The notes under the pieces: model-generated | Databases searched by the model: none | Seen by the model: the letters and a program-made list of their open reading frames with translations, nothing else | Told to the model about the DNA's origin: nothing | Translations under genes and position numbers: made by a program | Part shown: positions 11,826-29,364 of the stretch, in pieces | Layout of the letters: each line of letters opens with the position of its first letter | Position numbering within the stretch: the stretch's first letter is position 1 | Source of the DNA: a virus | Direction: 5' to 3' (one strand) | IMG/VR virus record: IMGVR_UViG_3300020463_000067 | Span: 1 to 33,654 of that record | DNA: 33,654 nucleotides

Positions 11826-11851
11826 AAAAAAAGGGGCGAACTAGCCGCCCC
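11826..11851 (-). terminator. Rho-independent terminator after the major capsid gene
   Basis: Reading the minus strand, stem GGGGCG and CGCCCC (6 bp, 7-nt loop GCTAGTT) is followed directly by seven T. It starts about 22 nt after the capsid stop codon. Late genes continue downstream with no obvious new promoter, so it probably acts as a partial terminator that sets high capsid versus lower tail-gene expression. Confidence 0.85.
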
Positions 11852-11873
11852 CAAGTTGTGAATGGAGAAAAAA

Positions 11874-13039
11874 TTAACTTCCACTTAAACCAATAACCGC
11901 CGCATGCGCCTTGGGCGCTTTGACGATTAAAGTATATTCGCTTACTAAAGCGAATTTTGTGGCGTCACCAGTGGCGGCAACATCACTTACGCTAAACATA
12001 CGACCTGGGAGTGAGCCTATGCAAACGTAATCCGTATCAATCAGATATATTTCTGAATTGTTAGCTTGACGGTCAATCGTTACAGCTAACTCACCAAAAT
12101 CACTCAAATAAAGTGACACTGAGCCAACTATCGCAATATCGCGTGGTGCAGAATAATTTAACTGCGCTGTAGCAACAGAACCAGACGATAGATCAGAAAA
12201 GTTCTGCTTATTTGTTGGTGACATCAACAACATATTCGGGCTTCCACCGTCAGTGTATGCCGCCAACATCGCAGCATCTATTTGACTGAGCGTTAAAGCT
12301 CGGGCAGTCCCCGTCAAATCGGCGACATCACTCCCATCACCAGTAGCAAATGCCATATCACTAGGCGCATCACCATTGGTAATCCAAGTAATAAGCTTCG
12401 CGCATTTACGCGGATCTGAGCCTGAACGAGCTTCATTGGCGAATAAGGATTTCTCTATATCGCGCCGTTGCTCAATTCCCTTGAGCACCTTAACGTACGC
12501 AGTTTCCTTATCACGCCCTGCTTTGTCTACAACATCCAGAGTGTTGGATACTGAAGCCGCTTGGACCGCAATTTGGTGATGGTTGCCAAGTCGTGTTGTT
12601 ACAGCGGGATTGACGTATGAATAATCAGCGCCTTCGTTGGCGTGATTGTTCGCTGCCGCCGCTGCAAGCTCTTGGACTTGCCATTCGTGAAAGATACCCT
12701 TTGTGGTTTCTTTCTGTGAGTTTGAAACTACTGGAGTTTCATCGGGATCGCATTCCCTCTCACCTTTCGATGAGGATTGGACTATATCATAACCATAACG
12801 CAAATGTAGCTATAGTTCTGGGCGCTCTAGCCTGTTATTAAGAGGTCTAACCTCTCAGGTAGTCTCTGAACCTTCTACCGCTGTGTAGGTAGCTTGGATG
12901 CTGATTGCCATATCATTTCTGACTTAGGGTTCCAGCAGTTCACCCAGTTTATACCGCACCGATCTTAGTTAATGCGGTAGACCACATCGCTGAGATCTTC
13001 CCTTTCTCCAATAGCTGTTGAGCTAGTATATGTAGCCAT
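11874..13039 (-). CDS. Major capsid protein (DUF5309 / SU10-type HK97 fold), split gene: exons 13039-12972 and 12750-11874
   Basis: Exon 1 starts at ATG 13039, with AGGAGG 6 nt upstream. It encodes MATYTSSTAIGEREDLSDVV, then YR and two bases of an Ile codon. Exon 2 resumes at 12750 with the last base of that codon, then DPDETPVVSNSQKETTKG, and ends at 11874. Joined length is 945 nt, or 314 residues, exactly in frame. The joined N-terminus matches the usual opening of this capsid family (GEREDLSDVxYRIxPxETPxxSN), followed by FHEWQ and AKLITWITNG. Without splicing, translation stops after 23 residues at TAA (12968-12966). Gene order (portal, scaffold, capsid, adaptor) supports the call. Expression of this essential protein depends on removal of the intron. 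Confidence 0.92.
12751..12971 (-). ncRNA. Group I self-splicing intron in the major capsid gene (221 nt, no homing endonuclease gene)
   Basis: Numbering is from the first intron base (12971). P1: exon UACCGCAU with intron 13-20 GUGCGGUA, giving a U-G wobble at the 5' splice site. P10: intron 8-12 GAUCG with 3' exon CGAUC. P3: 25-31 CUGGGUG with 148-154 CGCCCAG. P4: 35-39 with 69-73. P5: 49-52 with 57-60 (GAAA loop). P6: 80-84 with 93-97. P7: 108-112 GACUA with 188-192 UAGUC, in the typical contexts UUCAGAGACUA and GAUAUAGUCC. P7.1: 113-116 with 138-141. P7.2: 117-122 with 126-131. P8: 155-163 with 173-181. P9: 198-203 with 208-213 (GAAA loop). The intron ends in G221. The P7.1/P7.2 insertion suggests an IA-like subgroup. 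It is too small to carry an endonuclease gene. Confidence 0.95.
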
Positions 13040-27262: not shown

Positions 27263-27283
27263 AAAAGAAAGGTGGGGGACATT

Positions 27284-27934
27284 GTGTTCACAAGAATATA
27301 CGATGTTAGAACTAAGTTAAAAGTTAAACAGGACGAATTAGCAAAATTGTCCGGTGTGAGTCAAAGCCAGATAAGCAAATATGAGAAAGGTGAAGTAACC
27401 AATCCAAGTTTTGATAAACTCGTTAGAATAGCAGAAGCACTTGGAGTTACCGTAGACGATCTTAAAACTAAGACCGATGATCAAGATTTTTCGCCAGTAA
27501 GACAAACCACATCAGCCGTGTTCGTTCCTCTATATCAGGGGAAAACAAAAGTGAGAGAATTAGATAATGCCTTTGCATCCCGATTGGGTTTCAATAGGTT
27601 AGCTCACCAACAAATACGAAAACCAAGTTTCTTGGAGTATTCTGATACTGCATATGCAATGACTGTGTATGGGGACCATATGAAGCCGCGTTATCGTGAA
27701 GGTGATATAATCTATGCAGATCCACAGTTAACACCACAAGACGAAGACGATGTTGTAATATCGTTTAAGGTGGATGGATCTTTTGTTGGTGTGGTGAGAG
27801 AGTTAGTAAGTATGAACGCCAATAATATAACGTTTAAAGACCTACAAACAGGAGAAACCAAGATGTTTTCTCTTAATGATCTATACGCTGTTCATGTGGT
27901 GGTTGGATCACAAAAATATAGACCAAATCAATAA
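27284..27934 (+). CDS. CI-type repressor with an S24-fold domain lacking the catalytic Ser
   Basis: 216 residues from GTG 27284, with GGTGGGGG 5 nt upstream; a GTG at 27272 is possible. The N-terminal HTH (about 6-60) has KVKQDELAKLSGVSQSQISK. The C-terminal S24/LexA-like domain has MTVYGDHMKPRYREGDIIYA. The family motif is GDSM, and here His132 replaces the nucleophilic Ser. The segment that should carry the Lys reads FVGVVRELV, without Lys. No Ala-Gly or Cys-Gly cleavage site is evident in the linker. It should bind the ATTCATATNTGAAT-type operators as a dimer, but self-cleavage is unlikely. Confidence 0.8.
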   Translation: MFTRIYDVRTKLKVKQDELAKLSGVSQSQISKYEKGEVTNPSFDKLVRIAEALGVTVDDLKTKTDDQDFSPVRQTTSAVFVPLYQGKTKVRELDNAFASRLGFNRLAHQQIRKPSFLEYSDTAYAMTVYGDHMKPRYREGDIIYADPQLTPQDEDDVVISFKVDGSFVGVVRELVSMNANNITFKDLQTGETKMFSLNDLYAVHVVVGSQKYRPNQ

Positions 27935-28193: not shown

Positions 28194-29306
28194 TTAGTGT
28201 AATGTTATGATGTATTCGTCACCATACGTCTCTTCGGGGCGTATCTGGCGGTAATGCTTGTCAGTCACATCACTACCAACTTTATGCCCGACAAGCACCT
28301 GTACATGATCCTTGCTTTTACCTTCATTCAATTGCTTGTTTATGTAAAACCTACGCAAACCATGAAAACCAAATTTCTGCACATTTGCACTAACGCAACC
28401 TCTGTATAAAACGGACCTCACCACATCAGTTGCCGCGAATAGATTGCCCTTTGTATTGGTGAACAGCCATTCACCTTCGCTTACCGCTTTAAGCTGTGCC
28501 AAATCATCTTTAAGCTCTTCACTTATTCTAACTGTGCGATTGCTTCCGGCGGTCTTAGTATCGCCTAGTTCGCCCCTGTCATTACTTAATCTAATGTGGA
28601 TCTTATCACCGTTAATAGCGTCCCAACGTAAAGCAAGGATTTCGCTGATCCTCATTCCATTTGCAGCGGCAAGTTTAATCATAACTTTCTTCCAGTGAAC
28701 CGTAGTGGCTTGCAAGATAGCTAACACCTCGCTTTCAGTTGGTGTGTAACGCTCTTCTGAAGCTCGTGTTTCCAAAGGATCAAGTTGCACACAAGGATTG
28801 TATTGCACCAAGTTTTCCTGAATAAAAAATTTGAATATTCTACGCAAAGTTCCAAGAATTGTGTTTGCGTACTGAGGTGACATTCGCTTCTCTAGTTCTT
28901 TTTGAAACTTCATTACGTTTTGTGTGGTAATGTCCTCTAACTCCATCTTGCCGAAAAAAGGTACAATATGTTTATTAATGTGCACCAAAAGAGTTGTACG
29001 TCTTTTTGGCCTTAGTCTACGCCCATATTTTGAGTTGGTTTTATAATTATTAACTCGCTCGTCTATCTCAGCTTTATAAAGATATATTAAGTCTCCCAAC
29101 AGCGTTGATTTTTTTGGTGTTAAAGTACCATTGTGCCGCAACTTTAAGTCTTGCTTCATAGCCCACGTCAAAGGGTCTATATCGTCACGGCAAATTTTTT
29201 TCTTTTCTTTGCCAGTTTCTTGATCATCCCACCGAATAAAAAAGTGGGACTTATCTCGCCTCTTGCCATGATATAATTTGACTATTTCACCTTCCCATAA
29301 AAGCAT
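28194..29306 (-). CDS. int: Tyrosine-family site-specific integrase
   Basis: 370 residues from ATG 29306, preceded by GGAG at 6 nt; an ATG 12 nt upstream (29318) contains the ribosome site. The N-terminal arm-binding and SAM-like core-binding parts (about 60-180) precede the catalytic domain with Arg219 (NGMRISEILALRW), Lys251, His315 and Arg318 (FHGLRRFY), His341 (LVGHK) and Tyr352 (DKHYRQI). All catalytic residues are present. It should recombine the nearby tRNA-Gly-derived attP with the host tRNA gene. Its promoter carries the phage operator. Confidence 0.92.
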   Translation of the reverse strand: MLLWEGEIVKLYHGKRRDKSHFFIRWDDQETGKEKKKICRDDIDPLTWAMKQDLKLRHNGTLTPKKSTLLGDLIYLYKAEIDERVNNYKTNSKYGRRLRPKRRTTLLVHINKHIVPFFGKMELEDITTQNVMKFQKELEKRMSPQYANTILGTLRRIFKFFIQENLVQYNPCVQLDPLETRASEERYTPTESEVLAILQATTVHWKKVMIKLAAANGMRISEILALRWDAINGDKIHIRLSNDRGELGDTKTAGSNRTVRISEELKDDLAQLKAVSEGEWLFTNTKGNLFAATDVVRSVLYRGCVSANVQKFGFHGLRRFYINKQLNEGKSKDHVQVLVGHKVGSDVTDKHYRQIRPEETYGDEYIITLH

Positions 29307-29364
29307 ATTTTTCTCCATTCATATTTGTATTGGGTAAAGGATAATTTACCCTTATTATTTTCCC

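Follow-up and report, generated by a model that had tools for sequence, protein, structure and literature searches.

Comparable introns have previously been described in phage capsid genes. The major capsid gene of mycobacteriophage LittleE harbours an intron that is most likely of group I, its splicing was demonstrated by RT-PCR, and intron-free relatives exist (PMC3706429). The LittleE intron comprises 819 bp, encodes an endonuclease and is inserted at about nucleotide 496 (PMC11855218). Compact introns of 265 bp without an endonuclease gene are found in a different structural gene, coding for a tail protein, of the phages BAKA and Optimus (PMC3706429). Finally, T4-like phages employ free-standing endonucleases, which act in trans and move group I introns devoid of an open reading frame (ORF), a process termed collaborative homing (PMC3984707).

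Here, we describe an intron in the major capsid gene of an uncultured tailed phage, located on a metagenomic contig of 33,654 nucleotides (the whole stretch analysed, termed “the window”). As in LittleE, the intron interrupts a phage major capsid gene with intron-free relatives; in contrast to the LittleE intron, it spans 221 nt, lacks an ORF and lies after nucleotide 68 of an SU10-type capsid gene. It resembles the BAKA and Optimus introns in being compact, endonuclease-free and part of a structural gene, but differs from them in target gene and insertion site. Collaborative homing in T4-like phages serves as a model for the movement proposed below; unlike in T4-like phages, none of five tested families of free-standing endonucleases was found in the phage group of the window. 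A literature search, the scope of which excluded most subscription journals, yielded no report of the nucleotide 68 insertion site, nor of any intron in the SU10/DUF5309 capsid family. Judged from its sequence, the element is very probably a compact, endonuclease-free, self-splicing intron of the IA type, with a U ahead of the 5' splice site and a G at its end, which interrupts the SU10-type capsid gene of a tailed phage.

The interrupted capsid gene

The capsid gene is located on the minus strand, to which all coordinates of the gene and its intron refer. A GGAGG ribosome-binding motif (13050-13046) precedes the ATG at 13039, where exon 1 begins (13039-12972; 68 nt, ending in ...CGCAU). The 5' splice site follows U12972, and the intron (12971-12751; 221 nt, final nucleotide G12751) is delimited by shared boundaries, covariation and an Rfam match. 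Exon 2 (12750-11874) comprises 877 nt including the stop codon. Read without splicing, the frame from the ATG codes for MATYTSSTAIGEREDLSDVVYRIN and ends at a TAA at 12967-12965, while the rest of the protein resumes in a different frame past 12751. A preliminary description of the locus had this TAA after 23 codons; the correct count is 24, made up of 22 whole exon codons, one split codon and one intron codon. The same description held that joining the exons restores the frame. Indeed, without 12971-12751 the sequence CUACCGCAU abuts CGAUCCCGAU, and a stop-free frame of 314 amino acids is formed.

The joined product matches the profile PF17236 (SU10_MCP) with 234.6 bits (E 2.2e-69) over its full length (residues 5-311 of the protein, positions 3-291 of 292 of the profile). 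By this match it is identified as an SU10-type (SU10/DUF5309-type) major capsid protein, the target named in the preliminary description. The gene neighbours, a scaffold protein upstream, an SU10-type portal and a terminase, are consistent with a capsid gene. Just past the gene, a G+C-rich hairpin followed by a run of T (11832-11852) likely acts as a terminator. The window also contains integrase and repressor-like genes (28194-29318 and 27272-27934), on account of which the phage is probably temperate. No tRNA was found in the 33,654 nt, and when bacterial and archaeal genomes were scanned twice with the capsid, no relative emerged.

Predicted fold and covariation of the intron RNA

The Rfam group I intron model RF00028 matches positions 12993-12758 with 78.5 bits (E 1.5e-18; curated cut-off 50 bits) and is covered completely (model positions 1-253 of 253). 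The match occurs once and is the sole Rfam match in the window. With this covariance-model check, which had been put forward in the preliminary description, 12971-12751 is confirmed at the sequence level as a complete group I intron.

Moreover, every helix named beforehand could be placed. P1 (12979-12952) pairs the exon end 12979-12972 (UACCGCAU) with the guide 12959-12952 (GUGCGGUA), forms a U.G pair at the splice site and carries an in-frame UAA in its loop (12967-12965; intron nucleotides 5-7). The 5' strand of P10, GAUCG (12964-12960), is complementary to CGAUC in exon 2 (12750-12746). In the core, the strands of P3 (12947-12941 and 12824-12818) and of P7 (GACUA, 12864-12860, and UAGUC, 12784-12780) pair with each other. 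The P4-P5-P6/P6a domain extends over 12937-12871, with P4 at 12937-12932/12904-12899 and P6 at 12897-12896/12872-12871. P7.1/P7.2 (12859-12831), the P8 hairpin (12817-12791) and a P9 hairpin with a GAAA loop (12774-12759) precede the final G. P7.1 and P7.2, which lie between P7 and P3 and are a feature of group IA, both fold in 29 of 29 sequences, and by this predicted architecture the intron belongs to subgroup IA.

The covariation set consists of 29 distinct introns with their exon ends, onto which a structure of 69 pairs, written on the window sequence, was projected. Across these introns 96.6% of the pair cells are formed, and as a control the structure slid by one to three columns pairs in 32-40% only. 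Both sides changed in 27 of the 69 pairs (157 cells), a value reached by none of 500 shuffles, although common descent inflates such counts. Double changes affect three of seven pairs in P3, which is always paired, eight of nine in P8 and four of six in P9; they are also present in P4, P5 and P6a, and the entire P4-P6 domain is paired in all sequences. P7.1/P7.2 is likewise fully paired and contains one compensatory pair. P6 and P7 are invariant and 100% paired, the U.G pair at the 5' splice site is kept in 29 of 29 introns, and the terminal G in 35 of 35 loci. One P6a pair occurs as three pair types and one P8 pair as five, a diversity difficult to account for other than by selected pairing. 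Folding energy alone (z -2.7, with one of 200 shuffles equally good) constitutes modest evidence, and the comparative evidence is decisive.

Covariation extends across the exon-intron boundary. One exon-intron pair of P1 occurs as C-G, A-U or U-A, and P10 shows a double change from A-U to G-C in 10 of the 29 introns; thus, the capsid coding sequence itself is held to the ribozyme. Accordingly biased are codons 22-23 (R22 I23), which read CGC ATC in all 32 carriers compared, against CGC in 10 and ATC in 22 of 58 non-carriers. The codon choice of the carriers matches what the predicted P1 pairing requires.

Distribution and proposed movement in the capsid family

A capsid search in viral contigs, carried out irrespective of introns, retained 80 loci. 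Most of these are uninterrupted genes of 942 nt (the best with 98% amino acid identity to the window), and seven contain the same insert. Two DNA-pattern scans (an intron 19-mer and a 21-mer) added further carriers, and the carrier set, being enriched in this way, gives no estimate of prevalence. Altogether, 35 loci including the window bear the intron exactly at nucleotide 68 (site 1, codon phase 2). Each has a T before the intron, a G at its end and a restored frame, which upholds the boundaries 12971-12751 given in the preliminary description, and capsid identity to the window decreases to about 48%. Over 120 viral contig stretches contain the 21-mer AAGGTTCAGAGACTACCTGAG of the P6-P7 region, indicating that the intron core is widespread in phages. 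The site-1 intron was not found in isolate phages, and resemblance to introns of marine and other phages is restricted to the core (at most 55% of the intron length). The 56 contigs that contain the joined junction motif were considered as spliced copies; none is like a carrier gene, and the best identity of 84% marks them as other intron-free alleles.

The capsid family harbours introns at three additional sites, and up to two per gene (two in 11 of the 90 genes of the capsid tree set). One of these sites, after nucleotide 322, is occupied in nine genes of the tree set as well as in phage C72C1; the other two follow residue 76 (locus L097) and residue 233 (L153). With strong support (100/100), the introns of these three sites cluster together and separately from those of site 1, and hence two intron lineages are distinguished; an AU test on whether the site-1 introns form a single clade gave p 0.31. 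C72C1 (OQ984150) possesses a capsid of the same family as the window and a group I intron of 81.8 bits, which differs from that of the window in insertion site and lineage. The GenBank record (OQ984150 8530-9731; locus L082) presents the capsid as two “major head protein” fragments, with three small reverse-strand ORFs annotated between them, where the intron lies. This annotation probably needs correcting. Farther afield, a PhotoRC-II RNA, known as the leader of psbA in cyanophages, precedes a run of eight matches to group I introns within 5 kb of contig L156 (6507-11183), and several such matches in L159, L107 and L168. The arrangement has the appearance of a cyanophage gene interrupted by numerous introns.

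The presence of the introns is patchy. On the capsid tree, at least 15 changes are needed to account for site-1 presence and eight for site 2, and identical capsid proteins are encoded without introns in L016 and with two introns in L099 and L100. Introns exceed their exons in identity (92% versus 72%, and 79% versus 55%), to which RNA constraint contributes. Pairs of carriers and non-carriers, which are not independent of one another, share 83-89% identity within 40 nt of site 1 and 91-98% elsewhere, and 10 of 10 chosen near pairs agree with a local drop; in pairs alike in intron state identity does not drop near site 1. Between L016 and L099, which are the most similar pair, there are 18 differences; five of these fall at nucleotides 63-78 and seven at 294-336, surrounding the intron sites at 68 and 322. 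Similarly, the differences between L098 and L009 are found at nucleotides 6-69 and 315-336. Patchy presence and flanking exon divergence suggest transfer at the DNA level with co-conversion, and part of the local divergence may instead stem from selection for P1/P10 pairing. The intron would thus move between related phages as DNA and co-convert the flanking exon, with either a trans-acting endonuclease or recombination during mixed infection as the driving force.

Known cases of homing require an endonuclease. The 221-nt intron contains no endonuclease ORF, just as the preliminary description stated, and the families HNH_3, HNH, GIY-YIG, LAGLIDADG_3 and T5orf172 have no match in the window, nor in as many as 36 related records, several of which exceed 30 kb. 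Of the attributes of a homing intron, patchy presence is observed and flanking co-conversion is suggested by the non-independent pairs, and a homing endonuclease encoded by or serving the intron was not detected among the five families in 35-36 records. This result is compatible with both a trans-acting enzyme that belongs to a different family or resides in a different phage, as in collaborative homing, and plain recombination. We tentatively, and with somewhat less than even confidence, view the SU10-type capsid gene as an intron hotspot (four sites, two lineages, at most two introns per gene), where endonuclease-free introns recurrently home by means of a trans-acting enzyme or a route without a classical endonuclease.

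A doubtful but serious competitor is mosaicism, i.e., ordinary homologous recombination of capsid alleles during mixed infections without any homing endonuclease. The unmatched endonuclease families agree with it, as do the genes for a single-strand annealing-type protein, an exonuclease and a RusA-like resolvase in the phage. Yet, mosaicism does not readily explain why exon divergence is confined to intron-centred tracts in the otherwise almost identical genes of L016 and L099, or why insertion always occurs at the same nucleotide in capsids as distant as about 48% identity. Reverse splicing into RNA, with subsequent reverse transcription and recombination, would also account for movement without an endonuclease, the target being read by few base pairs. 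This route predicts no co-conversion beyond the guide-paired bases, but the differences between L098 and L009 reach well outside P1 and P10, and we consider it very improbable.

Proposed splicing in the infected cell and implications

Given the structure and its conservation, the intron RNA very probably cuts itself out of the capsid message. Ribosomes would translate the short exon 1 and halt at the UAA in the P1 loop, and consequently would not enter the ribozyme core. The RNA would then fold, and a guanosine would attack after U12972. Subsequently, the freed exon U would attack after G12751, with exon 2 aligned by P10, and the message for the 314-amino acid capsid protein would be restored. 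Guanosine-dependent splicing in the infected cell is inferred from the intron family. An early in-frame stop, described for most group I introns, prevents ribosomes from entering the structured RNA (PMC3073962). At site 1, where seven distinct 5' variants occur, an in-frame stop (TAA, TAG or TGA) is always present at intron nucleotide 5 or 8; in introns of the other sites it lies at nucleotides 12-16, and a comparably early stop arises in about 15% of letter-shuffled introns. By analogy, the stop may shield the intron from ribosomes in the window phage, too.

Very improbably, the intron is an inactive relic, with the capsid protein made by downstream reinitiation, frameshifting or from a second gene. 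Splicing is predicted here from the sequence, and exon 2 lies within an ORF that could start with TTG at 12803; however, compensatory changes throughout, boundaries kept in 35 loci and exon-end codons held to P1 pairing point to continuing selection for splicing, and the N-terminal motif that a relic would forfeit is conserved in the capsid family. An assembly artefact or chimera might be suspected in a metagenomic contig such as the window, and the preliminary description proposed to assess this in relatives; it is practically excluded by the same-site intron in 35 loci on contigs from many different metagenomes, by many natural empty sites and by the related intron in the same gene of the GenBank phage C72C1.

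Taken together, these genes provide a natural allele series with no, one or two introns in one essential phage structural gene, sometimes encoding identical proteins, so that what group I introns cost, how efficiently they splice and how they move can be tested directly. As C72C1 illustrates, annotation can split intron-bearing capsid genes, and therefore capsid-based phage surveys can miss or truncate them. An intron that appears mobile although no endonuclease was detected is informative on the spread of ORF-less introns, and the unusual distribution of the capsid intron makes it worth following.
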